Source: a virus
DNA: 48,118 nt
Reading direction: 5' to 3' (one strand)
IMG/VR virus record: IMGVR_UViG_3300020156_000038
Location: 1 to 48,118 of that record
Shown: positions 1 through 17,642 of the stretch, in pieces
How positions within the stretch are numbered: position 1 is the stretch's first letter
Layout of the letters: each line of letters opens with the position of its first letter
Made by a program: the position numbers and the translations under genes
Notes under the pieces: generated by a model
Database searches by the model: none
Told to the model about the DNA's origin: nothing
What the model saw: only the letters and a program-made list of their open reading frames with translations

Positions 1-127
1 CATCCTTTCCCTCGCGCAGAACAACATGCCGTCTGCGCAATCGGCCAGCTTCAGCACCACCTCTTCACGCGGTGTAACTTCGATGCTGAAGTCCACCGTG
101 TTAAGCAGCTGCTCCTCAACCTCGCCG
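1..127. repeat. 127-bp terminal direct repeat, left copy
   Basis: These 127 bases are identical to 47992-48118. The repeat lies inside one reading frame that continues seamlessly across the join (the HD-domain gene). Together with a length equal to a common assembler k-mer, this points to the overlap left when a circular assembly graph is linearised, not to a biological terminal repeat. The unique circle would be 47,991 bp. Confidence 0.93.
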
Positions 128-456
128 AACTCCTTGCGGATGCCGAGCGCCCGCTTAGCAGGGCTGGGCACGTCGCCGGTGTATTGCTCGGCCAGGTCGT
201 GCGTCAGTGCCTTCATCAGCAGCGCCGCTGACGGCTTGCCATCCTCCAGCAGCATGCAGAACATCGCGACGCCGTGGCTGTGCTGACCCACCGTGTTCTC
301 CGTCACCGTGGGGATGGTGTGGAACCGTTTGACTGCGCTGCCGTCGAACAGCGTGCGCACCTGCGCTAATGCCTTGCTGCCCGGATTGAAGAACGCTTTG
401 TCACCGTGATGAAAGTTGGCGTCGTAGTGGCCCAGGAACGGTGAGATGTCAACCAC
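1..456 (-). CDS. HD-domain 5'-deoxynucleotidase (YfbR-like), N-terminal part; continues at 47991
   Basis: This is the N-terminal 152 codons of a protein split by linearisation; joining to 47991-47833 gives 204 aa, close to the roughly 199 aa of E. coli YfbR. GTG at 456 is chosen because AAGGAG stands 7-8 nt upstream and it overlaps the stop of the upstream thymidylate-synthase-like gene by 8 nt. HD-phosphohydrolase metal residues are visible: H59 and H61 (GQHSHG) and H86-D87 in THDLAEQ, followed by YTGDVPSPAK, a sequence typical of YfbR-type nucleotidases. Known members dephosphorylate deoxynucleoside 5'-monophosphates. In this operon it may remove dTMP or another dNMP to favour a modified nucleotide; that role is inferred. 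Confidence 0.85.
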   Translation of the reverse strand, partial: MVDISPFLGHYDANFHHGDKAFFNPGSKALAQVRTLFDGSAVKRFHTIPTVTENTVGQHSHGVAMFCMLLEDGKPSAALLMKALTHDLAEQYTGDVPSPAKRALGIRKEFGEVEEQLLNTVDFSIEVTPREEVVLKLADCADGMLFCARERM

Positions 457-1522
457 GGGTCTGCTCCTTTGCTGCGCGCTTGGCACTGCGCCGTTCGAGC
501 CACTCTTTGCAGGCGATGCGCCAGTCCCACGCGGCGATCTTGAGCACATGCTCGTCGGCTTCGTCGTACTGCTTGTTCCGCCACGCGTCATGCGCCAGAT
601 ACATGGGCACGGCCACTTCGCCGATGAACCTGCTGTTCCACTTGGTGTACTCGTTGTGGATGCCGTTGCGGGTCAGCAGGTAATGCAGGTCTTGGTGCCA
701 TGCATCCAGTGAGCAATCCACCAGCGGCATCAAAGCGCAATCCTTGTGAGTGGTGGTATAGCGACAGCTACGCAGCGCGTCATCGGCCAGGATCAGGATG
801 TCCTCTTCCTTGACGATGTCCGTGTACAGATGCAGGTTGTTCGACACCTGGCGGTACACGCCAACCGGCACGCCGATCTTCGCCGCCATGTACTCCTGCA
901 GGATGCTGAAGTGCACGGCATTCGCCCCGTAGCAGCCCCACAGCATGTCGTTGCTGCGGTTGCACACGGTCATATTAAGCACGCCGCCACGGCAGTCGAA
1001 GTACGCATGCGTGTTGCACGGCACGTCCTTACCGCCAGCCTGCGCCACCCAAAGGTCGGAATGACTTGTATCGGCCATGTACTCAACGCCATCCAAGTTA
1101 GGCGCTGCGTTCCACATGGCGAGAACAGCACGGCGGCTATTTGGATTGTTGCGCAAATCTTTTGCGATAACTTCCAACTGGTCGTAGCCGAAGAAGTTTC
1201 GCCAGCGCCAGCCGTAGGCACCCCAGATGCTTTTTCCATCGTCGCTGTATTCACGGAAACGCTTGTTGAACAACATGGGGAACAGCAAATCGTTGCGCCC
1301 GCCGAGCATCCACAGGCTTTCCATCAGATGGAAGAACGGGTTGGCGTCACGCAGCGGCGAGAACAGCACCCGGCGCTGCGGCTGGTAGTACACCGTTGTG
1401 ACCGGCGCCGGCATCACCAGCACCGTACCGTTGCGGCTGTCCTCACGGATGCCTACCTGTTGCACCTTGTACAAGGCTTCGTTCAACGCTTCCGATACGC
1501 TACTTGCATGTACGATGTCCAC
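449..1522 (-). CDS. Thymidylate synthase family protein (candidate dUMP hydroxymethylase)
   Basis: The 357-aa product keeps the TS catalytic framework: paired arginines 130-131, nucleophile C169 in DVPCNTH, phosphate-binding R189-S190 and D192 in NRSND, an Asn (N201 in GANAVHF) where dUMP-specific enzymes have Asn and dCMP hydroxymethylases Asp, and H231/Y233 in NNLHLY. The substrate is therefore probably dUMP. The family includes both methylating TS and phage enzymes adding a hydroxymethyl group; sequence alone does not decide, but the neighbouring hmdU-type gene favours hydroxymethylation. GTG at 1522 is preferred to the longer ORF because GAGGAG lies just upstream and the preceding gene stops 1 nt before it. 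It overlaps the HD gene by 8 nt, indicating translational coupling. Confidence 0.85.
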   Translation of the reverse strand: MDIVHASSVSEALNEALYKVQQVGIREDSRNGTVLVMPAPVTTVYYQPQRRVLFSPLRDANPFFHLMESLWMLGGRNDLLFPMLFNKRFREYSDDGKSIWGAYGWRWRNFFGYDQLEVIAKDLRNNPNSRRAVLAMWNAAPNLDGVEYMADTSHSDLWVAQAGGKDVPCNTHAYFDCRGGVLNMTVCNRSNDMLWGCYGANAVHFSILQEYMAAKIGVPVGVYRQVSNNLHLYTDIVKEEDILILADDALRSCRYTTTHKDCALMPLVDCSLDAWHQDLHYLLTRNGIHNEYTKWNSRFIGEVAVPMYLAHDAWRNKQYDEADEHVLKIAAWDWRIACKEWLERRSAKRAAKEQTRG

Positions 1523-1523
1523 T

Positions 1524-2372
1524 TTACTCTCCTCGACCAGGATAACGGGAGCGCGGCCGACCCTGGCCCATCCGTACGCGCTCGTACTTGTCAAACTCAC
1601 ACAGACAGTTCTGTAGGTCCTGTGCGTCAATCGGTTGTAGGTTGTGGTTACGTTCGCGCTGTATGAACTTGGTCACCGCGTCGAACAGCATGTCGAAGTC
1701 ACGCTGCCAGATGGCAGGGTTCATCCGTTGCTTGTATGGCCTGTCGAACACGCGGTTCAGTCCGCGCCTGCTGCCTTCTCCCATTGCTGCCCATGTCCAC
1801 CAGTCGGGCGCTTGCTTCAGGTGGCCGTAGTGCTTCGTATCTGCCACTACCTGCGCCGCCAGGAAGTCACCGATGCCGTCTTGCGCCGCCAGCCTTGCGT
1901 GAAACGACGCCAGCGTATCACCTTCCTTCGGTGCGATATGCTTGCGTGCGTCCCATATGGGCTGCAGTACCCGTTCAGCGTAGTACTTCTCCTTCGGTAT
2001 GGCATTGCGGTGTGTCGTGATCATGTAGGCACCAGTCCACACCTTCTGGCCCAACGCGCTGCGCTTGCTGAGCACCCGCTGAAACCGTTTGGCGTCGTAC
2101 GGTATGGGTATACTCATGTCGTTCAGCGTTTCGTGCCAATTCACCACACGCGCCACCAGCATGGCGAAGAACAGGTAGCCGTGGTCACCGAGCACGTCGC
2201 GCCAGTTCTCCTTGATCCAAATGGTCTCCGTATCTAGTTCGCGGTACACGTTGCAGAAGCGGTACTCCTGCAGAATGGCGTCCTGTGTCCACGGCTTCGC
2301 CATATCCATCTGCCGCCGCTGGTAAATGCGGTGTCGCTCACACATGAACTTCAGCAGCTCATCGATGCGCAT
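1524..2372 (-). CDS. HhH-glycosylase-fold helical protein of the 5-hmdU DNA kinase / aGPT-pyrophosphorylase family
   Basis: 282 aa. I recognise the motif series of this phage DNA-hypermodification family: KPWTxDxIL (26-34), RFCNVYRELDTET (38-50), a helix-hairpin-helix-like GIGDFLAAQVVADTKH (166-181) and GEGSRRGLNR (198-207). Relatives occur in phages that convert 5-hydroxymethyl-dU in DNA to more complex thymines, either as the helical domain of the hmdU DNA kinase or as alpha-glutamyl/putrescinyl-thymine pyrophosphorylase. No P-loop is visible here, so it would act as a stand-alone transferase/pyrophosphorylase or work with a separate kinase. ATG 2372 has GGAG 7 nt upstream and overlaps the glycosyltransferase stop by 14 nt. 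Family placement is from memory of motifs, not a search. Confidence 0.68.
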   Translation of the reverse strand: MRIDELLKFMCERHRIYQRRQMDMAKPWTQDAILQEYRFCNVYRELDTETIWIKENWRDVLGDHGYLFFAMLVARVVNWHETLNDMSIPIPYDAKRFQRVLSKRSALGQKVWTGAYMITTHRNAIPKEKYYAERVLQPIWDARKHIAPKEGDTLASFHARLAAQDGIGDFLAAQVVADTKHYGHLKQAPDWWTWAAMGEGSRRGLNRVFDRPYKQRMNPAIWQRDFDMLFDAVTKFIQRERNHNLQPIDAQDLQNCLCEFDKYERVRMGQGRPRSRYPGRGE

Positions 2373-3174
2373 TCTTGTACTCCATACCAGCGAGAATAGC
2401 ACGACGCCAGTTGACCTTGACATCCGTGCGTGTGCCCCACATGGTGCCATTACCCTTCTGTTGCTTGGTGACCACCGTAACGCAGTCCGGGTGCAGCTTG
2501 GCAAGCTGCTCAGCGGCTTTGCGCTGTACGTCGTCGGTGCGGTAGGTGCTACACCCGCCTTCTTCGTTACTGCCACGCTGCTCCTGAACCAGCCGATTCA
2601 GTTGGAAGCATTCGTGTCCGCGCTTGAGCAGTTGCAGCTGGACGTCGAAGTCCTCCATGACAGGTACACGGAACTTGATGCCTTCACGCTTCAGCAGGTC
2701 GCGGTCGTAGGCCAGCGCCCGCAGCTGTCGCGTGTTGAAGTCGAGCGCCGCGCGGTTGTTGGCGAACAGACGATGCCCGATGCTGCCGTGGCCGTAGCGC
2801 CGCAGCAGCTTGACAACCTCGGCCAGCCCTGCCGCGCGCTGTGCCTCAGTGGCCTTGCGGTAGCGCACGCTGGGCTCACCATCCAAACCCTCAGCTTCGT
2901 CGCGCCAGGACCACGAGCTCAGGTCGTCGTCTAGCATCAGAATGTGCGGGTCGTCGCTGCATTCCAGTATAGACTGACGCGTTGCAGCGATGCCCTTGGC
3001 AGAACATCCTCGAACACGCGCGCCCAACAGCGCTGGATGCCCTTCAAACGACTTCACCTCCTTTACTGGACACACGACGGTGACGCCATATTTCTTGACC
3101 AGCTTGGGGCCAAGTTCACGGATGGTGAACTGCATTTCAGGGCCACGGTTCAGGGTTGGGATGAAGATACGCAT
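2359..3174 (-). CDS. GT-A fold glycosyltransferase, TAGT-like
   Basis: 271 aa. The N-terminus MRIFIPTLNR, then GIAATRQSI (61-69) and an LDDDL metal/nucleotide-sugar motif (81-85) are the signature of GT-A glycosyltransferases. The arrangement resembles TAGT enzymes (TET/JBP-associated glycosyltransferases), which attach sugars to hydroxymethylated pyrimidines. MEDFD (173-177) could supply the acidic base of the acceptor site. It is the gene directly upstream of the hmdU-family protein and TS-like enzyme, so a role in glycosylating a modified thymine in phage DNA is the simplest inference; the sugar donor is unknown. The ATG overlaps the stop of the preceding small gene (TAATG). Confidence 0.7.
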   Translation of the reverse strand: MRIFIPTLNRGPEMQFTIRELGPKLVKKYGVTVVCPVKEVKSFEGHPALLGARVRGCSAKGIAATRQSILECSDDPHILMLDDDLSSWSWRDEAEGLDGEPSVRYRKATEAQRAAGLAEVVKLLRRYGHGSIGHRLFANNRAALDFNTRQLRALAYDRDLLKREGIKFRVPVMEDFDVQLQLLKRGHECFQLNRLVQEQRGSNEEGGCSTYRTDDVQRKAAEQLAKLHPDCVTVVTKQQKGNGTMWGTRTDVKVNWRRAILAGMEYKNAHR

Positions 3175-3374
3175 TAGGTGGTCTCCAGTTCGCGCGCCGC
3201 TTTAACGGCTTCGAGTCGATTGAATTGGTTGACGAGGTAGCGGCCGAACTTGACCGGGTCTTCCACGCCGTCCTTATACAGCTTCATGACGAACTGGTCG
3301 CCACGTTTTATGAACACCTCGCCCTTACGGCGAGGCTTATTGCTCATCGTCATGGACCACGTGTGTTCGGCCAT
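3174..3374 (-). CDS. Small basic protein, 66 aa, unknown
   Basis: ATG 3374 has a near-perfect AGGAGG 6 nt upstream, which decides this start over the longer frame. The product begins MAEHTWSMTM, is rich in Lys/Arg (NKPRRKGEVFIKRGD) and has no cysteine or membrane segment. It starts 1 nt after the stop of the CxxC gene, and its own stop overlaps the glycosyltransferase start. I recognise no family. Confidence 0.75.
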   Translation of the reverse strand: MAEHTWSMTMSNKPRRKGEVFIKRGDQFVMKLYKDGVEDPVKFGRYLVNQFNRLEAVKAARELETT

Positions 3375-3375
3375 G

Positions 3376-3669
3376 TCAGCCTCCTGCCATGCGGAGCCAG
3401 TGTTCACTGGCGTCGTCCGCATCACGGTACACGTATCGCTCACCATTGCGACCGCTGCGCATGATGACCGGACCGTCTTGCTCCTCGTAGTCCTCGCGCA
3501 CCTTGCCAGTGCCGCTGCAGACTTCACACGGTTGATCGTACTTGCCTTCGAGATACGCTTCGAAGTCTTCCTCATCCCAGTCCTCTTGGTTCACGATGCC
3601 GAGGTGGGCGCTGCTGTGTTCTTCGCCCTTACATAACGGGCAGATGATCCACGGTGCCTTGCTGCTCAT
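3376..3669 (-). CDS. Small zinc-finger-like protein, 97 aa
   Basis: Two CxxC pairs, CPLC (10-13) and CEVCSGTGK (about 48-56), could bind one zinc ion; the second pair resembles the DnaJ-type CxxCxGxG repeat. The acidic stretch between them (EDWDEEDFEAYLEGKYD) is a common feature of small phage zinc-ribbon proteins of unknown role. AAGGAG lies 8 nt before ATG 3669 and overlaps the sulfotransferase-like stop codon, so the genes are co-translated. Confidence 0.75.
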   Translation of the reverse strand: MSSKAPWIICPLCKGEEHSSAHLGIVNQEDWDEEDFEAYLEGKYDQPCEVCSGTGKVREDYEEQDGPVIMRSGRNGERYVYRDADDASEHWLRMAGG

Positions 3670-3673
3670 GGTC

Positions 3674-4396
3674 CTACTCCTTGTATCCGTAACGCTTGGC
3701 GAGTGACTTGATCTGCTTCCCCAGGTCGGTGTCGATGTCGATCATCTCGGCGAAGGTAAGCGGCGTGTACGCACGGAAGCCGCCTGTCTTGTTCATCGGC
3801 TTCAGGTGCGCGGGGTACGGCTCGTTCTTGCCCAGCATCTCCATGATGGCTGGCCACGCCTGCTGGTAGCGCTCCAGGTTGAACGTGAGGTCGGCCTGTT
3901 TTTCGCTCAGCTGGTTATGCGCCAGCCAGTAGTGCATCGCGCGCAGCATGGCGTTCTTGCGGATGTCCGGAATCAGCCCGTTGTCCACGTAGAACTGCCA
4001 CGTCACCGAGCCGAATATCTTGGTCATCGATGGGATGGCCTTGCGCGGGTCGCGGGTGATGTGCAGCGTGTGCTTGAAGTCGAAGTCGCTGCGGCGTTCG
4101 CCCACATGCTTCTTCAGCTGGCTTTCCTGCCACGGAGCCATCGGGTACCAGTCGCTGTCCACCACGAAGTAGTGGCTGACCGTGCCGTCGTCTCCGACCT
4201 TCTCATGCAGCACGTTGATGCCAACGGTGCGCAACGCCTTGGCGGTGAACATGGTGCCGCTGCGCCCAGAGCCGAGCACGAGCAGCTTCTTCGGGATGCG
4301 CACGCCCTTGCTCTTGCGAACGCCCCACTTCTCCTCGCTGCTGCGCAGGTGAGGCTCCTTCTCGAATACGATGATGTCGCGGCCGTTGACCTTCAT
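3674..4396 (-). CDS. Sulfotransferase-superfamily P-loop protein
   Basis: 240 aa. GSGRSGT (42-48) matches the 5'-phosphosulfate-binding loop of PAPS-dependent sulfotransferases, and HITRDPRKAIPSM (112-124) matches the 3'-phosphate-binding strand/helix with its conserved Arg and Ser. The remaining length is enough for one catalytic domain; there is no signal peptide or membrane anchor, so it acts in the cytoplasm. Known members transfer sulfate from PAPS to hydroxyl or amino groups. It is the first gene after a terminator and lies upstream of the glycosyltransferase, hmdU-family and TS-like genes in an overlapping operon, so a sugar or base substituent in phage DNA is a plausible acceptor. That is inference; some superfamily members have other activities. 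AGAGGA lies 11 nt before the ATG. Confidence 0.72.
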   Translation of the reverse strand: MKVNGRDIIVFEKEPHLRSSEEKWGVRKSKGVRIPKKLLVLGSGRSGTMFTAKALRTVGINVLHEKVGDDGTVSHYFVVDSDWYPMAPWQESQLKKHVGERRSDFDFKHTLHITRDPRKAIPSMTKIFGSVTWQFYVDNGLIPDIRKNAMLRAMHYWLAHNQLSEKQADLTFNLERYQQAWPAIMEMLGKNEPYPAHLKPMNKTGGFRAYTPLTFAEMIDIDTDLGKQIKSLAKRYGYKE

Positions 4397-4482: not shown

Positions 4483-5652
4483 TCAGTTGACTTCGATGTA
4501 GCCGCGCTCGATGTTCCAGTGCAGGTTGTGGCTGCCGCCACCGTTGGCGAAGAACTCGCCGACCGTCTTGGACTTCTTCAGCAGTTCGAACGTGTCGTAG
4601 CTGGCGGTGCCTTCGCGCTTCGGGTTGTCCTTGACGAGCACCTTGATCTTCTGGCTCTCGCTGAACGCGCCCTTGCGGCCACGGCGACCTTCGCCCTGGT
4701 CCTTCTTGCCTGCGGCCTTCTTGGCCGGTGCCTTCTTGGCTGCTGCGCCCTTGCCAGTGCCCTTGGTCAGCTTGGTCGGCTTGGCCGCGCCGTTGGCCTT
4801 GCCTGCGGTCTTCTTGGCCGGTGCCTTCTTGGCTGCGGGCTTCTTCTTGGCCTTCGGCTCGGCCTTGGCGGTCTTCTTGGCAGTGGTCTTCTTGGCGGTG
4901 TCGTTGCTCACGTTCTTCTCCTTCGATGCCTTTGCGGCGGGTTTGGTCTTGCTGGTGGTTGCCTCCTTGGTGGCAGGCTTCTTGGTGGCTGCGGCCTTCT
5001 TGGCTGCGGGCTTGCTCGCCGGCTTCTTCTGCGCGGCGTTCGGTGCGGCTTCCTGCTCGTTGGTCGCGGTGTCCTTGTTGTCTTGCTCGGTCATGCGCTT
5101 GCTCTCCAGTCGTGCGGCCTTCTTTTCGGCCTTGTTCTTCAGGGTGTTGTGGTTACGGACCGCACGCTTGATGGCATCGCGGTTCGATTCAGTAGGGGAC
5201 TCCTTCTTATCCCAGGTCCCCTTGCTGGGCTTCTTGCTGCTGCCAGCAATCAACTCGGTGGTGGTGCACGGTGCAACCGCAGGGCACGGACCAGTCTTCG
5301 GTAAGCCAGCTTTATGCGTGGCAATCACGTTGCGTTCGGCCAATGTCATACGTGCTGCATCGTTCATTGCGATCCCCTTGTCGGTGCTGAGCTTGTGTAG
5401 CGCCTTGGCGGCGCGGTCGGTCATGCGGATTGCTGCGGTCAGTGGCGTGGTGTAGTGCTCGATAGCCCGCCCCACCGGGTAAGTCTCGAGCTCCTTGTAC
5501 TCGCTGTGGAATTCGCGCGCTGCCATCTTGTGGATGTCGGTGGTCAGCTCGCCGTTACCTTCCTCAGTGCTGATATAGTGCACCACGCCCTTGTCTTCGT
5601 TCAGCAGGATCGCGCACCTGCTGTTTCGACTGCGGTATACAGCAACGTCCAT
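4483..5652 (-). CDS. Histone H1-like, lysine/alanine-rich DNA-binding protein
   Basis: 389 aa in three parts. Residues 1 to about 185 are an unrecognised globular region. About 190-310 is a low-complexity tail dominated by K, A, P and T with repeated AKKAPAKK units, very like bacterial histone-H1 tails. The C-terminal 65 residues (from GRRGRKGAFSE) form a compact domain containing KVLVKDNPKR and KTVGEFFANGG, a C-terminal module I have seen on other phage/proteobacterial H1-like proteins. An internal in-frame ATG (MTEQDN, near 5094) has GGAG 9 nt upstream and could give a shorter tail-plus-C-domain product. It probably binds or condenses DNA. ATG 5652 has GGAG 10 nt upstream. Confidence 0.75.
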   Translation of the reverse strand: MDVAVYRSRNSRCAILLNEDKGVVHYISTEEGNGELTTDIHKMAAREFHSEYKELETYPVGRAIEHYTTPLTAAIRMTDRAAKALHKLSTDKGIAMNDAARMTLAERNVIATHKAGLPKTGPCPAVAPCTTTELIAGSSKKPSKGTWDKKESPTESNRDAIKRAVRNHNTLKNKAEKKAARLESKRMTEQDNKDTATNEQEAAPNAAQKKPASKPAAKKAAATKKPATKEATTSKTKPAAKASKEKNVSNDTAKKTTAKKTAKAEPKAKKKPAAKKAPAKKTAGKANGAAKPTKLTKGTGKGAAAKKAPAKKAAGKKDQGEGRRGRKGAFSESQKIKVLVKDNPKREGTASYDTFELLKKSKTVGEFFANGGGSHNLHWNIERGYIEVN

Positions 5653-6655: not shown

Positions 6656-8428
6656 TTAGCGGCCCCGCTTGCCCTTGCCTGCCGCCCTGCCAGCGGCCTG
6701 CCCTGCGGGCGTTGCCCTGCGGAGCGCTGGCGTGGCCTGCCGGGTGGCTTTGGCCGGTGCCGCTGGCCTGCCCTGCGCCCTGCCGCCTGCGGCCTTAGCC
6801 TGCCCCGGCTGGCCTGCCCCGGTGCGCGGGCTGCCGCTGGCCTGCTGCACCTTGGCGCGGCGGTCGCGCACGTAAACCCGCAGCGCATCCAGCAATGCAT
6901 TCTGGCCCTTCTTCTTGCGGCGCAGGCTGTACAACTTGGCCTCATCGACGGTGTCACGCGCAATGATGTGATGCACGAACACGCGCTTGTGCTTGCTGCC
7001 CTGTCGCAGTACGCGACGAATGAACTGATCGTACAACTCATAGTCGTAGGTCAGTCCGTACCACACCACATGGTTACCAGCGTTCTGCAGGTTCAAGCCG
7101 TGGCCCATGCTGGCCGGGTGGCCGATCAGCACGGGCATCTCGCCGCGATTCCACTTGGCTTCTATCTCCTTGGAACGCTTGGCGCTGACGCCGCCGCCGA
7201 TGTATGGCGTGTCCTTGCCGAACACCTTGAGCAGACGTTCCAGGTCATGTTCAAACTCATAGGCAATGAGCACCGGCTGGCCGCTGATCTCTTCGACCAG
7301 ATCGGCCACAATTTCGTCCTTGCCTTCGTGCACCAGCTCCCAGCTGTTCGGCCCGCGCTGGCGCGCAGTGCTGACCAATGGGTCCTTCTGCTTGTAGATG
7401 CCGCCATTGGCGATCTGCGCACACTTGGTCATCGCCGCTGCGGCGTTGAGTGCGGACACCGTGTTGCCTTCGACCTCTGCCACCATGTTCTCCTCCATGG
7501 TGTCGTACAGTTCACGCGCCTTATCTGGCAGGTCGAACTTGATGATGTTCTCGACAAGCTCAGGCAGTTCCAGGTAGTCCGCCGCTGACAGTCGCAGCAC
7601 CATCTTCTTCAGCTTCTCGTAGATCAGCTTCTCGCTGTCCTTCTTGGGCACGAACGTGTACCCGCCGTAACCGGTCGGGTTGAAGTACGTCGCCTTGTAA
7701 TGCGTGATGTACGGACTGAGCGCCGCGCCCATGTCGACGATGTACACTTGGCCGAACAGGTCAAGCAACCCGTTGGGAGACGGTGTGCCGGTCAGAATCC
7801 AGCGACGACGGAACCGGTCCAGCGTCTCCTTCAGAATCTTGAACCGCACGCTGTTGCTGTGCTTGAACTTGGTGGACTCGTCGACCACGAGGTCAGTGAT
7901 CGCACCAGGACCGAACAACCACTTCAAGCGCGCTTTGTCCAGCTGCACCTGCACCTTGTTATTACGACCGCGCGCCTTGGTGACGTTGAACAGCCACTCC
8001 AGTCCTTCGGGGTTGACGCACAGCACGTCGTACGCGTTGTTCTCAATCGCGTCGAACAGAACGTCTTCCTTGTCCTTTCCGTGCAGCACACCCACCCGCA
8101 GATGGTTGAAGTCCGTCCACTTCTCCGCCTCGGCCGGCCACACGCTGTGACACACGCGCAGCGGCGCGATGACCAGCGAAATGCCCGACAGGTTCTGCTT
8201 CTTCAGCAGACTGAGCGCGGCGAGCGTGATGCTTGTCTTTCCCAGACCTGGGTCCAAGAACAGGCCCGCGCCTGCGTGTTCGAGCAGCCACTTGACTGCC
8301 TTCTTCTGGTACGCATGCGGCTTCCACGGCTGCGCCTTTACGGCGTACTCCAAGGGCGCGTCGTCCCGCTTTGATCGCTTGGTCAACGATACGCTTGCCT
8401 TCTTCCGGGTCTTCGCAGACGTGGACAT
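6656..8428 (-). CDS. SNF2/superfamily 2 helicase
   Basis: 590 aa. Q-like motif QPWKPHAYQ (33-41), Walker A DPGLGKT (59-65), DExx-type VVDES (about 180), ILTGTPSPNG motif III, and C-terminal motifs including GHGLNLQNA and the arginine-rich FIRRVLRQGSKHKRV (motif VI) are all present, so it should be an active dsDNA translocase/helicase of the kind found beside VRR-NUC nucleases in phages. After about residue 520 the protein turns into a 70-residue tail of A, G, R, P, K and Q encoded by unusual GC-rich repeat-like DNA. ATG 8428 has AAAAGGA 9 nt upstream but lies deep inside the VRR-NUC frame; TTG codons at about 8386 and 8350 are alternatives. It probably acts in replication or recombination. 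Confidence 0.87.
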   Translation of the reverse strand: MSTSAKTRKKASVSLTKRSKRDDAPLEYAVKAQPWKPHAYQKKAVKWLLEHAGAGLFLDPGLGKTSITLAALSLLKKQNLSGISLVIAPLRVCHSVWPAEAEKWTDFNHLRVGVLHGKDKEDVLFDAIENNAYDVLCVNPEGLEWLFNVTKARGRNNKVQVQLDKARLKWLFGPGAITDLVVDESTKFKHSNSVRFKILKETLDRFRRRWILTGTPSPNGLLDLFGQVYIVDMGAALSPYITHYKATYFNPTGYGGYTFVPKKDSEKLIYEKLKKMVLRLSAADYLELPELVENIIKFDLPDKARELYDTMEENMVAEVEGNTVSALNAAAAMTKCAQIANGGIYKQKDPLVSTARQRGPNSWELVHEGKDEIVADLVEEISGQPVLIAYEFEHDLERLLKVFGKDTPYIGGGVSAKRSKEIEAKWNRGEMPVLIGHPASMGHGLNLQNAGNHVVWYGLTYDYELYDQFIRRVLRQGSKHKRVFVHHIIARDTVDEAKLYSLRRKKKGQNALLDALRVYVRDRRAKVQQASGSPRTGAGQPGQAKAAGGRAQGRPAAPAKATRQATPALRRATPAGQAAGRAAGKGKRGR

Positions 8429-8657
8429 CGTAGCCGTTCCTTTTCAGATATTTGATGGTCAGTTGTTGCAGCGGCTCAAGCGGATAGCCGGGTGATTTGA
8501 ACTCGATGATGAGCGGCTTACCACCGGGCATCCAGAACACATCATCTGGGAACCCTCGCCGCCCCCGCAGGTTCATCTTGGTTACGAGAATACCCAGCTC
8601 GTCCACCGCGTAGCGGACGACTGGGTTCTCGACCGCCTTCTTTTCTAGAAGACGCAT
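8043..8657 (-). CDS. VRR-NUC domain nuclease with long out-of-frame overlap into the helicase
   Basis: The first ~95 residues are a complete small VRR-NUC: E5, GRRGFPDDV (32-40) and the catalytic LIIEFKSPG (49-57), followed by QQLTIKYLKRNGYDVHVC. Stand-alone phage VRR-NUC proteins are usually about 90-130 aa and sit just upstream of an SNF2 helicase, as here. The open frame does not stop there but runs a further 110 residues through the 5' part of the helicase gene, to 8043, as arginine-rich sequence without recognisable structure. Either the natural stop was lost or the overlap is genuine. ATG 8657 has AAGGTGG 6 nt upstream and overlaps the upstream gene by 13 nt. Confidence 0.75.
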   Translation of the reverse strand: MRLLEKKAVENPVVRYAVDELGILVTKMNLRGRRGFPDDVFWMPGGKPLIIEFKSPGYPLEPLQQLTIKYLKRNGYDVHVCEDPEEGKRIVDQAIKAGRRALGVRRKGAAVEAACVPEEGSQVAARTRRRGPVLGPRSGKDKHHARRAQSAEEAEPVGHFAGHRAAARVSQRVAGRGGEVDGLQPSAGGCAARKGQGRRSVRRD

Positions 8658-9373
8658 GGCCCACCTTTCGCCTTACTGAATGGGCACCACTGACAGTACT
8701 TGCCAGGACGCGGTGCGAAGGTGCGGTCGGCGAACATCGGCTTCACCCGTTTGTCCCACTGCTTCTGCGCGGCGATGGCCTGCTTGGCCGTGTAGACAAT
8801 CGGTTCCTCGGCTGGGTACGTGATCCCCAGGTCGGTGTACAGAAGCTGCGCCGTGATCTCCTTCGACTGCGGGTATCGTGCGATGCCTGCCGCCGCGTAC
8901 AGGTCCAGCTGAAGCTTGTACTCCTCGTTCTTGTACTCGTTGAACTTGCCGGACTTACCATCGCGGATGTTGAAGCTGTTGTCATCCAGGAACTGGTAGC
9001 CGATGTCGATCTTGACACGCAGCACGCAGTTGTTCCAGTCGTCCCACGCCACCGGGTTCCAACTGGTGTCGAAGCCCCAATTCTCTTCCGCCACGAGCGA
9101 CGGCTGCGCGCGGTAGAACTTGTAGTGGTCCTTGAACGACTGCAGTTCCTTTGCCAGCCGACCAGTGCGCTTCAGCAGGTAGTCCTCACTGGCCTGCGCA
9201 ATCTTCTGGCCGCGCAGCATGGCGTCGCTCTTGGGCTCTGGCAGCTTGTCCAGATGCTTGTACTTGGCGAAGGCTGGGCAACGATTCCAGTCGTTGTACC
9301 GCGTGAACGACCACGACTTGATCTGCTTCGGCGCAGCCCTCGGCTTGTACGTCTTGAACTTTGGCTGGGCCAT
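8645..9373 (-). CDS. PD-(D/E)XK exonuclease, Cas4/RecB-like
   Basis: 242 aa. SFTRYNDWNRCPAFAKYKH (22-40) is the N-terminal S-x-Y-x-x-W-x-x-CP motif of RecB/Cas4-type nucleases. The catalytic core is RVKIDIGY followed by IRDGKSGK (D-x-K), then QLDLYAAA (QxxxY-like). GKYCQWCPF...CVF at the C-terminus gives the remaining cysteines of a possible iron-sulfur cluster. Such enzymes process DNA ends in phage replication and recombination. ATG 9373 overlaps the upstream stop and follows GAGGAG. Confidence 0.82.
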   Translation of the reverse strand: MAQPKFKTYKPRAAPKQIKSWSFTRYNDWNRCPAFAKYKHLDKLPEPKSDAMLRGQKIAQASEDYLLKRTGRLAKELQSFKDHYKFYRAQPSLVAEENWGFDTSWNPVAWDDWNNCVLRVKIDIGYQFLDDNSFNIRDGKSGKFNEYKNEEYKLQLDLYAAAGIARYPQSKEITAQLLYTDLGITYPAEEPIVYTAKQAIAAQKQWDKRVKPMFADRTFAPRPGKYCQWCPFSKAKGGPCVF

Positions 9374-9579
9374 TACCGGCTCCTCGACTTGGCTTTCTGC
9401 TTGCGCTTGGCTGCCTTCTGCGCGCGCAGCTGCTTGCGGTTGGGCTTGTACGGGTCGACGTGCTGAGCCGCTTTGCCGAACTCCTGCTGAATTTCCTTGG
9501 CTCTGGACTTGTCCTCACGCCCACCTTCCATCAGGTGCTGCATGCTGCCGTCGACGATTGCCTTGCTGATCATTTCCAT
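9373..9579 (-). CDS. Small, strongly basic protein, 68 aa
   Basis: ATG 9579 has AAGGAG 7 nt upstream, overlapping the polymerase stop. The N-terminal half is helical (MEMISKAIVDG), and the C-terminal third is almost purely K/R/Q/A (RKQLRAQKAAKRKQKAKSRSR), probably binding nucleic acid. It lies between DNA polymerase and the Cas4-like nuclease, so a replication accessory role is possible. No family recognised. Confidence 0.7.
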   Translation of the reverse strand: MEMISKAIVDGSMQHLMEGGREDKSRAKEIQQEFGKAAQHVDPYKPNRKQLRAQKAAKRKQKAKSRSR

Positions 9580-9583
9580 GCTG

Positions 9584-11443
9584 CTACTCCTTGAACTTCT
9601 TGAGAGTGGACCAGTTGGTGCCGGTCTTGCCGTCGGACAGCATCGGCACGTCGAACTCAACGCTCTGCATCACCTTCCGCAGCAACGCCATTTCCGACTT
9701 GACGTGCGCCTTAGGCACCGACAAGTTGATTTCGTCGTGCACAGTCACCAGGAATCGACCGTTACGTTTCTTCTCATCGTGGTACCTGATGACCGCTTCC
9801 TTCGTGCAGTCGGCGGCGCTGCCTTGAATGAGGTAGTTCAGCAGCTTGTACTCGAACGTCTGCTTCCTGCCATCGATGATCTTCGGCGGTTCGCAGTAGT
9901 ACTCGCGACCACCCCACGTACGAATCGCCTCACCGTCCTTGCCACGCTGGCTGATGTACTTAGCCAACGCCTTCAGACCGGGGATGGCTTGCAGCTGTGC
10001 GTCCTTGATCTTCTTGGCCTCCTCGACGGTCACCTTCATGCCCGCCGCCAGCTTGCCTAGACCCATGCCGTAGATCATGCCGAAGTTAAGAATCTTGGTC
10101 GAGCTACGACTGATCTCCAGCCCGTAGATTTCCTTGATCTGCTCTTGCACGAATGTGTGGATGTCCATGCGTGGCTGCGCATTGTACTCGGCACACAGCG
10201 TGTCGTCTTCGAAGTGACCCAGGATACGAAGCTCTTGCTGGTTGTAGTCGCGGTGGCAGAACACCTGTCCCTTATCCGGCAGGATGTACTGACGCATCAG
10301 CGGCAGTTCCGGAATCGTCAGATGGTTCGGATGCGCGTAACCATCATCCTTGCCTTCGAACGACTTCGGGATGTTCTGGAAGTTGGGTGACGAAGACATA
10401 CGCCCCGTGCGCGCACCGGCGAAGCCGTCGTTGCCGTGTGACTGCCGTACCTGATTCCAGTTGGTGTAGATCATGCCACCGGACTGCTGCGCCATTTCGA
10501 GCCACGGTCGCATGAACGTGCCCATGCACGTAGCCAGCCGGTTACGATAGCCCAGCGCGTGCGCTACACGCTTGTCCTTGAACTTGTCCAGCGTCAGGTT
10601 CTTCTTGGCAACGCTGTTCTTACCGCTTGGTGTCTGCACCCACTCGCTGATGATGTTGTTGCGTTCCAGGGCCTCGGCCACTTCGGCATCGCTGTCGACG
10701 TTCAGGTCCTTGGACTTCAGCCGCTTGCGCAGCCAGTTGTCGACTATGATAGTAGCTTCTTCGTATTGCTTCAGGTCCTTCGCCAGCTTGCGCTCGTCAG
10801 CGCGGATGCCGATACGCTCGTTGTCAAGCAGAATCGGCATCAGCCTGCGCTCACGATCATAAGCCTCCAGCATGTTGCGTCGCACGATCTCCGGGTACAG
10901 GAAGTCAAACAGCTTGCGGGTACGCAGCACGTCGCCGTCAGCGTATGGTGCCACGATGTCACCCGGTGCCAAGCTGATGAACGCCCCAGCCTTACCGCGC
11001 GACTGCTTCTTGATAATGCCGTTGTCCACAAGCCAGTCGGCCACTGCGTCACGCTCTTCTGGAGCCATCCCCAGCAAGCGTTCCGCACTCGGCTTCAGGC
11101 CCAGGTTCATGGCATGTGGATCGTGCAGGAACAGGAGATACAACGTGTCGTGGTATCGATCCCACGGCAGGCGCGGCATGCCCATGTGCTCTTCGGCTAC
11201 GTCGACGTCGAACTTGCCGTTATGGAACAGCAGCGGTTCACCACTCTTCCACGCATCAAGCAGCACTGCACGAGCAGCCTGCTTGGTGGTGTTGTTGCCT
11301 GTGGGATGGCCCCAGCGGTGGTAGTGGCCTCTGCGCTCGCCAGGACGCAGTATACTGAAGCCTACCGGCACTGGCGGGTACTTCGGTCGACGTTCGATGG
11401 ACTCGGTTTCGAAGTCGACCGTGATGGGTTTGATCTTTGCCAC
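9584..11443 (-). CDS. Family A DNA polymerase with 3'-5' exonuclease
   Basis: 619 aa, the size of compact phage Pol I-type replicases that lack a 5' nuclease. Exonuclease motifs are intact: VDFETE (D10, E12), LFHNGKFDVDV and the Exo III region APYADGD. Polymerase motif A is HRDYNQQELRILGHF (about 400), where Gln replaces the common Ile/Gly after DYS; motif B is RSSTKILNFGMIYG with Phe at the O-helix selectivity position; motif C is VTVHDEI (about 570). It should replicate the phage genome with proofreading. GTG 11443 is supported by TAGGAGAGTGAC. The unusual motif A Gln could relate to copying or inserting modified nucleotides, but this is speculation. Confidence 0.95.
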   Translation of the reverse strand: MAKIKPITVDFETESIERRPKYPPVPVGFSILRPGERRGHYHRWGHPTGNNTTKQAARAVLLDAWKSGEPLLFHNGKFDVDVAEEHMGMPRLPWDRYHDTLYLLFLHDPHAMNLGLKPSAERLLGMAPEERDAVADWLVDNGIIKKQSRGKAGAFISLAPGDIVAPYADGDVLRTRKLFDFLYPEIVRRNMLEAYDRERRLMPILLDNERIGIRADERKLAKDLKQYEEATIIVDNWLRKRLKSKDLNVDSDAEVAEALERNNIISEWVQTPSGKNSVAKKNLTLDKFKDKRVAHALGYRNRLATCMGTFMRPWLEMAQQSGGMIYTNWNQVRQSHGNDGFAGARTGRMSSSPNFQNIPKSFEGKDDGYAHPNHLTIPELPLMRQYILPDKGQVFCHRDYNQQELRILGHFEDDTLCAEYNAQPRMDIHTFVQEQIKEIYGLEISRSSTKILNFGMIYGMGLGKLAAGMKVTVEEAKKIKDAQLQAIPGLKALAKYISQRGKDGEAIRTWGGREYYCEPPKIIDGRKQTFEYKLLNYLIQGSAADCTKEAVIRYHDEKKRNGRFLVTVHDEINLSVPKAHVKSEMALLRKVMQSVEFDVPMLSDGKTGTNWSTLKKFKE

Positions 11444-11467
11444 GTCACTCTCCTAGATGCTGGGTTC

Positions 11468-11671
11468 TCAGTTGCCGCCAAGCAATTCGCGGCGTTCACG
11501 CTCGGCGCGCAGCTTGTTGGCGCGGCCGTGAATGCGCAGCAGGAACTGAGCTCGTTTGCTTCCCTTCTTCTCGTTCTCCAGCAGCTTCCAGCAGTCCTTC
11601 TCGGACAAGGTCTTCAGTGCTTCGTTCATTGCCACCCAGCTGCTGAGCGGATTGGTTTCGGGCTTGCTCAT
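11468..11671 (-). CDS. Small helical charged protein, 67 aa
   Basis: ATG 11671 follows AGGAGG with 4-5 nt spacing. The product is mostly charged helix (ALKTLSEKDCWKLLENEKKG, then RANKLRAERERRELLGGN) and resembles short phage helical proteins of unknown function. It sits between a terminator and the DNA polymerase gene and should be co-transcribed with the polymerase. Confidence 0.72.
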   Translation of the reverse strand: MSKPETNPLSSWVAMNEALKTLSEKDCWKLLENEKKGSKRAQFLLRIHGRANKLRAERERRELLGGN

Positions 11672-11693
11672 GGTTCCTCCTGTTATAGTTAAA

Positions 11694-11719
11694 GGTCCGC
11701 CCACTTACGCAGGCGGACC
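11694..11719 (-). terminator. Hairpin terminator (minus strand)
   Basis: An 8-bp perfect stem GGTCCGCC / GGCGGACC with a 10-nt loop is followed on the minus strand by TTTAACTATAA. It lies 9 nt after the stop of the putative ssDNA-binding protein. The short U-run suggests partial termination. Confidence 0.65.
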
Positions 11720-11727
11720 GTGGTTGC

Positions 11728-12612
11728 TTAGAACTTTCGCTTGCCTGCGCCTGCCTTGCCAGCGGCCTTGCCGACAACAGGACGCTGCTGGCGGGCTGCG
11801 GCCTTCTGTACCGGACGCTTGGCACCGCCCTTGCCGCGTTGCTTGGCAGCGCCGCGCTGGGGACGCTCTTCTTCCTCTTCACGCGGTGCGTAGGGGAAGT
11901 CGAGTTCGGTGGCATCGGCCTTGGCCATCAGCGCTTCGATGACGTCACCGTCTTCGATCGCCTCGACCAGCTTGAACTGGAGTTTGAACTGCGTCTTGGG
12001 GTCCGGCACGACGCTGATCTCGGTCACGACGCCCAGCGGCGGGCGCTGCAACGTCTTCTCCAGCTGGCGCACGTAACCGGCCCAGCCCTTGACGCTGGTG
12101 ACCGGGATGCGCAGGAACACCGGCGTCGCTTCCTCGATCGACTCGACATCAGCCGCTTCGTCCTCAGTGAGCAGCGCCAGACGACGCTGGTTCTTACACG
12201 CCTTGCCCCGGCCCTTCTCGGCCGAACCCCACTGGTTGATGTCGCTGTCCTTGCAGAGTTCGCCTGCGTATTCCGGGATCGAGTTTTCGTGCCAGCGCAG
12301 CGTGTTCTCGTCCCGCCCCAGCGCATACGCATCCGGCGGCTGCGGGTTGTCCGCATCGTAACCGTCCACGTAGTACGTGTACTCCAGGATGTGGTCGAGC
12401 ACCACCACGTTCATCTTGTTACCGGGGACTTCCGCACCCTGGTAGGTCAGCCGGCCGCCTTTCAGCGAAATGAACGTGCCACCGGAGCCTACGTTCTCTT
12501 CGATGCCTGCGGCCATCTGCGCGCGCTTGGCGAGCTCTTCGCTCCAGTTCACCATCGCCTTGCCGGGCTTCTTCGCGGCGGTCTTCTTCGTTGCTGCTTT
12601 CTTGGTAGCCAT
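11728..12612 (-). CDS. Putative phage ssDNA-binding / replication-associated protein with basic tails
   Basis: 294 aa. The core (about 20-235) contains FISLKGGRLTYQG, VVVLDHILEYTYYVDGY and a Cys-containing middle (ELCKDS, GRGKACKNQRRLAL), a pattern seen in abundant phage proteins encoded near DNA polymerase and often presumed to bind ssDNA. Both ends are low-complexity and basic: MATKKAATKKTAAKKPGK at the N-terminus and a 55-residue K/R/A/G/Q tail ending KAGAGKRKF. An acidic segment (EEEEE) precedes the tail. Classical SSBs end in acidic tails, so a basic end is unusual. The function is inferred from context; a middle-sized nucleoid-type protein is an alternative. Confidence 0.5.
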   Translation of the reverse strand: MATKKAATKKTAAKKPGKAMVNWSEELAKRAQMAAGIEENVGSGGTFISLKGGRLTYQGAEVPGNKMNVVVLDHILEYTYYVDGYDADNPQPPDAYALGRDENTLRWHENSIPEYAGELCKDSDINQWGSAEKGRGKACKNQRRLALLTEDEAADVESIEEATPVFLRIPVTSVKGWAGYVRQLEKTLQRPPLGVVTEISVVPDPKTQFKLQFKLVEAIEDGDVIEALMAKADATELDFPYAPREEEEERPQRGAAKQRGKGGAKRPVQKAAARQQRPVVGKAAGKAGAGKRKF

Positions 12613-12696
12613 GTTACTTGTATCCTTATGTCATAGTGACTTAGTTGGGTTGCGTCATCTTAATATCCCGCTCGACGTAGCGGTACAGCGATGGAG

Positions 12697-13119
12697 CTAC
12701 TGCTTGGTTGCGCCTTCCGGGACTTCGTAACGACCACTGACCTCACCACCCTGGATGGCAGAGCCACCGAGCAGCTGCGCAGCGAGCGATTCGTCATCCA
12801 TCGGCAGACCGAACTTCTTCTGCATTTCCTGCACCTGATACATCTGAGTGAACACCCGTGCGCCGCTGGCGAGATGCGTGATCAACTCCGGCGAACCGAT
12901 CATCGAGCTGATGAGCTCGAAGCCCTTGTTACCAGCCTTGTCGGGTTCGCACGATTGAATACCCATCACGACCAGACCTTCCAGCTTGGTCGGGTCGAGT
13001 TTCTTCAGCACATCCAGCGCTTCGGTGTTGGCCAGCACGGTTTCTTCGGGCGAACCGCGCTTGATCTTCTCGCACAACTCACCAGCGGCTTGCATGAACA
13101 GGCGTTCAATCAGATTCAT
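12697..13119 (-). CDS. Conserved-looking phage protein, 140 aa, unknown
   Basis: ATG 13119 is preceded by TAGGAGAGTAAGGAA. The product is largely helical (NLIERLFMQAAGELCEKIKRG, LDVLKKLDPTKLEGL) with no obvious catalytic motif. It lies between two replication-arm proteins with lysine-rich N-termini and is probably co-transcribed with the putative ssDNA-binding protein. I cannot name a family. Confidence 0.7.
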   Translation of the reverse strand: MNLIERLFMQAAGELCEKIKRGSPEETVLANTEALDVLKKLDPTKLEGLVVMGIQSCEPDKAGNKGFELISSMIGSPELITHLASGARVFTQMYQVQEMQKKFGLPMDDESLAAQLLGGSAIQGGEVSGRYEVPEGATKQ

Positions 13120-13157
13120 TTCCTTACTCTCCTATGAATGGACGGTTGTGTTGCGGG

Positions 13158-15137: not shown

Positions 15138-15264
15138 ACTCAGCTACCAATAGGTCGTCTTCGCAACGACTGTGGGTGAACGGCTCCACACCCGGTGGTG
15201 TGAAGCACACGAACGAGATGCGCCCGGTAAAGGCGCACCCGTAGACATGTCGTTCGAGATTCAT
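14827..15264 (-). CDS. Overlapping ORF, 145 aa; N-terminal part likely coding
   Basis: ATG 15264 overlaps the stop of the dCTP-deaminase-family gene, the standard coupling in this arm. The first ~50 residues (MNLERHVYGCAFTGRISFVCF..., EDDLLVAEYETETQAHAKGWDQGY) look like real protein, while the rest is Trp/Arg/Gly-rich and overlaps the 148-aa frame by 311 nt. Either both overlap genuinely, or a frameshift joins this N-terminus to the 148-aa frame. Function unknown. Confidence 0.5.
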   Translation of the reverse strand: MNLERHVYGCAFTGRISFVCFTPPGVEPFTHSRCEDDLLVAEYETETQAHAKGWDQGYRWRGAEAARNWSGPVYGREVPPRHWGCRSQAPYSRFVEFGLPTDDEESSSADAARYFDPGLLQSVLRGRRVGRRLRSLGGGVSGGSD

Positions 15265-15836
15265 TGTTTGATGCCCGACACGGTGGCGTCACCGTTGTAG
15301 CGCCCGCGCGCTGCGTAGCTGCGATCTTCGGGCACCGGCCCGTGCTGGAAGAACACCACCTGCCCAATGCGGTCGCCGGCCTGCAACCGAATGGCGTGGT
15401 AGCGTGTCATGTTCTTCAGTTCCAGCGTCAGCACACTGCCGTTCCACCCGGCGTCGCACCACCCGGCGTTCAGGTGTTCGAGACCAATGCGCGCCATGCT
15501 CGACTTCAGCTTGTACTCGGCACTGACGTTGCGCGGCAGGTTGAACATCTGCGCGGACTGCGCCAGGATGAACTCGCCCGGCAGTAGATCGTACGGGCCG
15601 TCTTCTTCCAGGTTGTGCGGCCCCATGAACAGCGGCGTGCGGTCACGCAGGCTGACGCCAGCGAGGCCTTCGATGCCAGTCTGCAACTGGGACGCATCCG
15701 GATGCTTGCGCTCGATCAGCAGGTGTGGCCCCAGCGTCAGGTCGATGCTGGTGGCGTTGATCTGGTCGTGCTCGACGTTGGTTATGATGTTCATCTCGAC
15801 CAGCGTCAGCAGGTTGTTGTAACTCAGCAGGCTCAT
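15261..15836 (-). CDS. dcd: dCTP deaminase / dUTPase family enzyme
   Basis: 191 aa, the usual length for Dcd. The trimeric dUTPase-fold signatures are present: NATSIDLTLGPHL (27-39), KLKSSMARIGLE (phosphate-binding Ser/Arg), then GWCDAGWNGSVLTLELKN containing the catalytic Glu position. Enzymes of this group convert dCTP to dUTP (or directly to dUMP) and so feed dUMP to thymidylate-synthase-type enzymes. With the TS-like gene this suggests redirected pyrimidine pools. ATG 15836 follows TAGGAGAGTGAA and overlaps the GNAT stop (ATGA). Confidence 0.87.
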   Translation of the reverse strand: MSLLSYNNLLTLVEMNIITNVEHDQINATSIDLTLGPHLLIERKHPDASQLQTGIEGLAGVSLRDRTPLFMGPHNLEEDGPYDLLPGEFILAQSAQMFNLPRNVSAEYKLKSSMARIGLEHLNAGWCDAGWNGSVLTLELKNMTRYHAIRLQAGDRIGQVVFFQHGPVPEDRSYAARGRYNGDATVSGIKQ

Positions 15837-16517: not shown

Positions 16518-16691
16518 CTAGTCCTTGGGTACGTTGGACTTGATGGCGATGCTGAGTAGCGCCGCAGCCATCCACGTCCAGATGTTGTAAGCGATGCCCA
16601 ACCCGAACAGCGTGTTGAGCGCCCAGATCAGCAGCAGCGGGCCGATGATGACCAGCGCCACTACTACCAGAAGCAACAGCAGTATCTTCAT
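16518..16691 (-). CDS. Small membrane protein, 57 aa
   Basis: ATG 16691 overlaps the kinase/nucleotidyltransferase stop (ATGA), with GGGAG 9 nt upstream. The peptide starts MKILLLLLVVVALVIIG, has a second hydrophobic stretch (LLIWALNTLFGLGIAY) and ends SNVPKD. The start is a possible uncleaved signal anchor. Too short for most ORF callers, but well placed between co-oriented genes. Function unknown. Confidence 0.7.
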   Translation of the reverse strand: MKILLLLLVVVALVIIGPLLLIWALNTLFGLGIAYNIWTWMAAALLSIAIKSNVPKD

Positions 16692-17494
16692 TGTACGTGC
16701 TCCCTCTCGAACTTGATGCCACGCTCCTTGCGGATATCCGTGGCGCTGATAGCGTGGATGTCAGCGCCCAGGTCAATCTGTTCGACGTTGTAGCCCACGT
16801 CCCGGCCGTAGTACACACCGGCGATGTTGGGCACGGACATCACAGCGAACCGGCCCTTGTACTTGGGTTCAGCGTCCAGCACCTCGCGGATGCCTTCGAA
16901 CACCTGCTGGATGCCGATGGGGTTGTCGCTACTGCACGGCACCGTGCGCACCAGAATGGTGGCAAAGCCGTGACGCTCGATGATCTGGTCGAGCAGCGCC
17001 TTATGTCCGCCGTGGAACGGCTGGAACCTGCCGATCATTACGCCCTGCGGAATGCACTGGCGGATGATCGACGCCATCTCGTAGACCTCTTCCGGTCCGT
17101 ACTCGAAGCCGGTGACTGTGAAGTCCGGGTTGGCAGGCTTGATGAACACGCGGTTGGTGTCTTCGAACCGGCCTTCCTCGATGGTGTTCATGAGGACGAT
17201 CAGGTGCGGTGCGAAAGCAGCGCGCGTTTCCGGCGTCGGGCATACGAAGTCCGCGATGACCAGCCCGCCCGCTTGATTGGCCTTGTCCTTCATGCGCTGC
17301 GCCTGCCGTACACGACCTTCTTCACTGAAGTCCCAGTCATCGGCTTCCTTGCGCACCTCGTCGGCGTTCAGGTGCGTTGCCGCAGGCAGGAAGTTCAGCA
17401 AGCGCTTGGCGAGCTCGGTCTTACCGGAACCCGGCAGACCCATGATCAGCACGCGGAAGGACTGCTCGGCATTAGCTTTCTTGGAAGCATTCAT
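16688..17494 (-). CDS. APS-kinase-like P-loop kinase fused to HIGH-motif nucleotidyltransferase
   Basis: 268 aa, two domains. Residues 13 to about 120 are an adenylylsulfate-kinase-like P-loop kinase: Walker A GLPGSGKT (19-26), LNADEVR (42-48), ADFVCPTPETR (81-91) and GRFEDTN (108-114). Residues about 150-268 are a nucleotidyltransferase: GRFQPFHGGH (155-164, HxGH) and ISATDIR (249-255), closest in motif style to NMN adenylyltransferases, more remotely to ATP sulfurylase. APS kinase makes PAPS from APS, so a donor role for the sulfotransferase-like protein is tempting; a kinase for a modified nucleotide or an NAD-related role are alternatives. ATG 17494 has GGAG 10 nt upstream and overlaps the small upstream gene by 23 nt. 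Confidence 0.75.
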   Translation of the reverse strand: MNASKKANAEQSFRVLIMGLPGSGKTELAKRLLNFLPAATHLNADEVRKEADDWDFSEEGRVRQAQRMKDKANQAGGLVIADFVCPTPETRAAFAPHLIVLMNTIEEGRFEDTNRVFIKPANPDFTVTGFEYGPEEVYEMASIIRQCIPQGVMIGRFQPFHGGHKALLDQIIERHGFATILVRTVPCSSDNPIGIQQVFEGIREVLDAEPKYKGRFAVMSVPNIAGVYYGRDVGYNVEQIDLGADIHAISATDIRKERGIKFEREHVQ

Positions 17495-17642
17495 TTGGGA
17501 TAAACTCCGATAGGATAGTAGGTACGAACGTTTGCTTGGTGAACTTGCTGACATACCCGCCATAGCTCGGGTCTTTCCACAGAATCCAGAGAATGGCGCG
17601 CGTCAGCGGCTTCGCCACAACCATCTGCCGTTTAACTGCCAT
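17472..17642 (-). CDS. Small protein, 56 aa, unknown
   Basis: ATG 17642 has a strong AAGGAGG ribosome-binding site. The product (MAVKRQMVVAKP, then RAILWILWKDPSYGGYVSKF) ends ECFQES. It overlaps the upstream stop and the next gene's start, matching the close packing of this operon. No family recognised. Confidence 0.7.
   Translation of the reverse strand: MAVKRQMVVAKPLTRAILWILWKDPSYGGYVSKFTKQTFVPTILSEFIPNECFQES

Follow-up and report, generated by a model that had tools for sequence, protein, structure and literature searches.

In Pseudomonas phage M6, 5-hydroxymethyldeoxyuridine (5-hmdU) is first polymerized into DNA, where a 5-hmdU DNA kinase phosphorylates it (PMC6449724). M6 and its relatives encode this P-loop kinase beside a helical protein of the HMUDK_hel family (helical domain of 5-hmdU DNA kinase, aGPT-Pplase1 type; hereafter HEL). 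A gene set made up of a thymidylate synthase (TS)-family enzyme, HEL, an HD-domain protein and a glycosyltransferase (GT) was noted previously in pelagiphages (the clade V/VIII/IX cassette of HTVC023P-type phages), its role being left open there (PMC9599517). Here, we analyzed a 48,118-nt stretch of viral DNA (IMG/VR record IMGVR_UViG_3300020156_000038, positions 1 to 48,118; hereafter the window) in which an operon joins HEL and a TS-family enzyme to a glycosyltransferase of the TAGT family and to a protein with a sulfotransferase fold (ST). We consider it moderately likely that a glycosylated 5-hydroxymethyluracil with a subsequently sulfated sugar takes the place of thymine, wholly or partly, in this phage.

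Results

Bases 1-127 of the window recur exactly at 47,992-48,118 as a direct terminal repeat, so that it represents a complete circular phage genome, and it has no close DNA relatives in the phage collection (best match 76% identity over 2%). The operon comprises seven genes, all on the minus strand and abutting or overlapping. ST (240 aa; 3674..4396) stands at its head, followed after two small genes by TAGT (271 aa; 2359..3174), a GT-A glycosyltransferase scoring 62.8 bits against PF20691 (gathering threshold 27.5 bits; E 5.7e-17; phrog_842 8.6e-36), with an LDDD motif at residues 81-84 that is invariant across the homologue alignment. HEL (282 aa; 1524..2372; PF18723 1.3e-43) is a homologue of the M6/SN1 protein whose gene adjoins a P-loop kinase. 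The gene of the TS-family enzyme, a predicted dUMP 5-hydroxymethylase (449..1522; PF00303 5.8e-16; phrog_5131 8e-114), has a clear ribosome-binding site. Last is a YfbR-like HD-domain 5'-deoxynucleotidase (PF12917 3.1e-8) whose reading frame runs in-frame across the circular junction, from 456 through 1 and on via 47991 to 47833; since the genome is circular with a 127-bp terminal repeat, this gene is not truncated. The PF20691, PF18723, PF00303 and YfbR-like HD matches all exceed Pfam gathering thresholds. An earlier note made from the DNA sequence had described an overlapping, co-oriented operon with seven gene assignments, all of which were confirmed here.

Because sequence profiles were sub-threshold for ST (its homologue in a second phage, L187, also fell below the Pfam Sulfotransfer cut-off, at 26.4 vs 27), the fold was checked by structure prediction. 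The AlphaFold model made with 30 homologues reached a pLDDT of 90.7 and a pTM of 0.89 (with just 4 homologues, the pLDDT was 39). When the model was compared with known structures using VIA-align, 50 of the 50 PDB entries listed were sulfotransferases dependent on 3'-phosphoadenosine-5'-phosphosulfate (PAPS), with TPST, NDST and StaL among them and a best Z of 11.6; Foldseek also ranked a sulfotransferase first, with nucleotide kinases mixed in lower down. Residues R45, G47, T48, H64, G71, R115, P117 and S123 are invariant in 30 ST sequences, and the loop reads GxGR(S/C)GT (GxGRSGT in the window), not Walker A GKT/S. R45-x-G-T48 and R115...S123 fit the 5'-phosphosulfate and 3'-phosphate loops of PAPS enzymes, the R115-S123 spacing of 8 being equal to the one between the Arg and Ser that bind the 3'-phosphate in SULT enzymes. 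The predicted structure confirms the sulfotransferase fold and places ST among the PAPS-dependent enzymes. The families assumed in the earlier note thus held for both proteins, as HEL falls in PF18723 and the ST model among PAPS sulfotransferases rather than in unrelated families.

Single-sequence search of viral contigs found no close relatives of ST, and homologues were found by profile searches only. Such scans placed ST in six phages, namely the window and those represented by loci L016, L035, L187, L194 and L092, and five of the six (all but L092) also carry HEL and TS. A scan of 83 phage records with Pfam Sulfotransfer_3 missed the known ST of L194, so that this profile is not usable as a census. 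In L187 and L194 the ST gene overlaps that of TAGT by 4-17 nt. The L194 locus runs GT-B-like, TAGT (8872-9603), ST (9600-10283), PIG-L deacetylase (10270-10845), HEL, ParB-like and TS, and the L187 locus runs HEL, GT4-like, TAGT (9001-9843), ST (9827-10495), APH-like, HAD, NTP-transferase, TS and HD. Lying between ST and TS (L187:10396-12475), these genes for an APH-like kinase, a HAD phosphatase and an NTP-transferase may serve to attach another, phosphorylated group to the sugar. A tight string of genes is found in L016, where HEL (10010-10855), ST (10852-11634), a GT-like gene (11636-12568) and TS (12569-13588) follow one another and ST starts inside the HEL stop region. The L035 locus holds a histone-like gene followed by ST and, about 6 kb away, genes for a radical-SAM protein, a TAGT-like protein, HEL, TS and HD. 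The L092 cluster (7756-13715) encodes a class-II glutamine-amidotransferase-like protein, an amino-acid:DNA transferase (ADDT; PF18724), ST, a P-loop kinase (PF18751) and a radical-SAM/TAGT fusion. None of the HEL+kinase loci scanned carried ST. Whether the six STs linked to modification genes share one origin was neither established nor rejected (p-AU 0.25). The closest bacterial homologues are from marine Flavobacteriales, and in the one locus examined the homologue's gene overlaps that of a family-2 glycosyltransferase. Taken together, the ST-TAGT overlap, the adjoining sugar deacetylase and the sugar-type neighbors in bacteria point to the sugar as acceptor, and we regard it as moderately likely that ST sulfates the sugar on glycosyl-5-hmdU.

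The phage of L016 also encodes a true adenosine-5'-phosphosulfate (APS) kinase (L095:1204-1818; IMGVR_UViG_3300026184_000061, record positions 49921-50532), which matched TIGR00455 at 2.4e-63 with 213 bits against an equivalog cut-off of 138.7. Such matches are rare, with 5 among 50,697 phage records. Among 50 HEL/ST phage records a full match was confined to the L016 phage, with a partial one in a fusion gene of the window, and none of the 46 HEL phages without ST had an APS kinase. Possible sulfation, raised in the earlier note, is strengthened by the recurrence of ST in the TAGT/HEL/TS loci of five phages and by this one APS kinase. The window's fusion gene (16688..17563, minus strand) joins an APS-kinase-like P-loop domain (PF01583, 26.8 bits vs a cut-off of 21.1; AAA_33, 31.1 vs 27) to a HIGH-type nucleotidyltransferase. 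As a PAPS-making APS kinase this candidate was rejected as unproven, since it fails the TIGR00455 equivalog cut-off (22 bits vs 138.7) and has homologues (48-50% identity) in 5 phages of Stenotrophomonas, Xanthomonas and Clavibacter for which the ST search gave no hit; a link to PAPS supply is possible.

The best PDB match of the TS-family enzyme was the CMP 5-hydroxymethylase MilA, ranked above true thymidylate synthases. At this position of the TS family, Asn or Asp decides between U and C, and the window's enzyme has the dUMP-type Asn aligned to the cytosine-selecting Asp of MilA, in agreement with the earlier note. The phage further encodes a family-A DNA polymerase and a dCTP deaminase (15261..15836, minus strand; PF22769 2.6e-29; phrog_1663 1.2e-42), which plausibly supplies the hydroxymethylase with dUMP. 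The Asn, HEL and the dCTP deaminase together indicate dUMP hydroxymethylation, and a thymine-replacing glycosyl-5-hmdU is very probably the product of the operon.

In contrast to M6, no 5-hmdU kinase was found in the window, as kinase-profile (HMM) searches of the complete genome returned no match and the credible genes picked up by a Walker-A scan of the genome were, besides the ST loop, the terminase and the 16688-17563 fusion alone. Profiles for aGPT-Pplase2/ADDT, PLP enzymes and radical-SAM enzymes had no match in the window either. The partners of HEL were surveyed in two independent IMG/VR samples of 80 HEL loci and 79 TAGT loci, which were scanned with profiles built for this analysis, and HEL was clustered at 80% identity into 94 clusters. 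HEL-seeded clusters with TS carried a kinase in 29 cases, TAGT in 18, both in 0 and neither in 9 (Fisher p = 2e-8), a figure to be read with the facts that many contigs are fragmentary, that the HEL set is biased to relatives of the window and that the profiles are our own. When further GT-like genes were counted, all HEL-seeded TS clusters but one carried a kinase or a GT, and the one left over, L035, encodes a TAGT of divergent sequence (PF20691 E 1e-5). The TAGT-seeded scan, which was blind to HEL, found HEL in 60 of 79 loci, TS in 61 and a kinase in 0. TAGT and HEL shared a strand in 84/84 loci, and the median distance between them was 42 nt. On the HEL tree the kinase/GT state undergoes at least 14 changes, and for the TAGT label or the kinase label alone 8 changes each are forced by well-supported branches; the partner of HEL has switched about 14 times. 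Given this exclusivity and repeated switching, the simplest reading of the gene neighborhoods is that HEL would be a shared partner for recognizing or presenting 5-hmdU in DNA, with an exchangeable catalytic mate, and would not be kinase-specific. The earlier note had called HEL an hmdU-kinase/aGPT-pyrophosphorylase-type helical protein; this family assignment stood, but HEL does not point to a kinase here, its partner being a kinase in some phages and a GT in others.

A conserved family of ~310 aa with an invariant QNDYTI motif occupies the TAGT position beside HEL in L014 (104-1051), L034 (2290-3270), L071 (3666-4613) and L016 (11636-12568). Searches of Pfam, PHROG and PDB gave no convincing match that would bear out a reading as a GT-B glycosyltransferase, and the exclusivity statistic above accordingly counts TAGT only. 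It is possibly a new family of DNA glycosyltransferases. HEL genes with no TS, kinase or GT nearby were observed in L018, L019, L026, L057, L059 and L074, on contigs some of which reach 463 kb.

The two small genes between ST and TAGT encode a CxxC protein with a DnaJ-type zinc motif (3376..3669, minus strand; ribosome-binding site present; weak DnaJ_CXXCXGXG match, E 0.008) and a small basic protein (3174..3374, minus strand). Among the listed start candidates, the ATG at 3374 is the likely one, so that the 133-aa open reading frame (ORF) of the earlier note is probably a 66-aa gene; the longer ORF had no family matches among Pfam and PHROG profiles. Directly upstream of ST lies a gene for a lysine/alanine-rich protein, histone-like by ORF composition (4483..5652, minus strand), which is possibly a context gene unrelated to modification. 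Similar lysine-rich proteins precede ST or HEL in L035, L016 and L187 and may have to do with how highly charged DNA is packaged. Adjoining the dCTP deaminase is a small GNAT acetyltransferase (15833-16183, minus strand) that could be a further sugar- or base-tailoring enzyme.

Discussion

The gene content suggests the following pathway. The dCTP deaminase and HD nucleotidase would move nucleotide pools to dUMP and off dTMP, and the TS-family enzyme, going by its family and active site, would convert dUMP to 5-hm-dUMP for polymerization. HEL would then present 5-hmdU in DNA to TAGT, which would put a sugar on the 5-hydroxymethyl group, both steps being suggested by strong gene association. Finally, ST, with its predicted fold and its position in the operon, would use PAPS, made by the host or boosted by the phage, to sulfate a hydroxyl or amine of the sugar. 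The bulk and added negative charge would likely benefit the phage by protecting its DNA from host nucleases. The glycosylated 5-hmdU-type thymine proposed in the earlier note is backed by the comparative genomics of HEL/TAGT/TS loci. For the full proposal, a DNA base with a sulfate ester or sulfamate made by a dedicated PAPS sulfotransferase on TAGT-glycosylated 5-hmdU, with an APS kinase of their own in some phages and with HEL as a general adaptor for kinases and glycosyltransferases, the balance tips only slightly in favor.

Several observations weigh against sulfation of the sugar. ST matches no Pfam family above cut-off, the best being Sulfotransfer_4 (E 0.012; 15.9 vs 22.8 bits), and it was found in only six phages, in diverged form (32-42% identity to the window's ST). 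Two small genes separate it from TAGT in the window, it lies ~7 kb from the modification genes and beside a histone-like gene in L035, the L016 glycosyltransferase lacks confirmation, and the L092 cluster has neither TS nor HEL. The window's own APS-kinase-like gene is not convincing as an APS kinase. Finally, ~20 other viral loci hold distant ST homologues with no modification genes nearby, and the superfamily alone is therefore no sign of DNA modification.

These last homologues also fit an alternative in which the TAGT branch is real and ST acts outside DNA, e.g., on the histone-like phage protein or on a host surface glycan such that receptors are altered. ST directly follows the histone-like gene in both the window and L035, its distance from the modification genes in L035 agrees with a separate role, and the family-2 glycosyltransferase beside its bacterial relative is of a type usual in polysaccharide work. 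However, ST sits within the GT-HEL-TS block and overlaps its neighbors in L016, L187 and L194, and the L092 ST is surrounded by ADDT, kinase and radical-SAM/TAGT genes, which makes action outside DNA unlikely. Still less probable is direct sulfation of the 5-hydroxymethyl group of 5-hmdU with ST as the partner of HEL, the sulfate either remaining as the end product or standing in for the kinase's phosphate as a leaving group in an activated intermediate. Sulfates of the benzylic type leave readily, the window has no kinase yet retains HEL, the kinase's partner in M6, and the L016 ST begins in the HEL stop region. Against this, all five ST phages with HEL and TS carry a GT or GT-like gene whose product would need that same hydroxyl, a large number of HEL+TAGT phages do without ST, which is thus not required as a partner of HEL, and sugar-tailoring genes lie beside ST in L187 and L194.

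Two further alternatives appear highly improbable. ST could be a repurposed, PAPS-independent kinase-like P-loop enzyme filling the role of the missing 5-hmdU kinase, given that its fold is common to nucleotide kinases and some appear in the Foldseek list, but its loop is not a Walker A motif, its 3'-phosphate motif is invariant and the VIA-align ranking holds sulfotransferases only. Similarly, a T4/TET-like glycosylated hydroxymethylcytosine would suit the naming of TAGT after TET-linked 5-hydroxymethylcytosine (hmC) modification and the action on glucosyl-hmC proposed for the T6 enzyme (PMC13390438), but the Asn of the TS-family enzyme, the place of HEL in a 5-hmdU system and the push of the dCTP deaminase toward dU all speak for uracil.

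The window shares with the Yuavirus M6 (5-NedU) a block of TS-family dUMP hydroxymethylase, HEL and HD; the M6 block alone holds the P-loop 5-hmdU kinase, aGPT-Pplase2, PLP and radical-SAM enzymes, in place of which the window has TAGT and ST. The kinase-or-GT exclusivity gives a testable role to a family so far named merely as part of a kinase, and provides a simple rule to forecast glycosylated versus kinase-derived thymine in 5-hmdU phages. ST has the fold and PAPS-binding signature of carbohydrate and tyrosylprotein sulfotransferases (TPST, NDST and the curacin sulfotransferase domain), which act on glycans, peptides or polyketides; we know of none that acts on DNA and of no sulfated DNA base. 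Our literature search, with incomplete coverage, found no report of such a base or of a sulfotransferase in an operon of this kind. The decorations known so far from phage bases comprise alkylamines, amino acids, sugars, deazaguanines and carboxymethyl groups. If our proposal is correct, sulfate would be a new chemical class of such decorations and yield the first sulfated DNA base, phage DNA modification would meet sulfur-donor metabolism, and new modification-dependent nucleases and sulfatases would be predicted.

The earlier note had suggested that the combination of genes may be new. This appears to hold for the sulfotransferase branch, whereas the TS, HEL, TAGT and HD set is already known from pelagiphages, the passages on which name no sulfotransferase, no kinase/GT exclusivity and no mechanism (PMC9599517). 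TAGT of phage T6 belongs to the same glycosyltransferase family as that of the window and also acts on phage DNA, but its proposed reaction is the addition of another glucose to glucosyl-hmC, not an action on 5-hmdU (PMC13390438). The DNA of Bacillus phage SP-15 resembles the proposed base in combining a modified thymine with sugars and extra negative charge, although it contains no sulfate and uses other genes, carrying instead phosphoglucuronolactone and glucose on dihydroxypentyluracil (PMC5977210).

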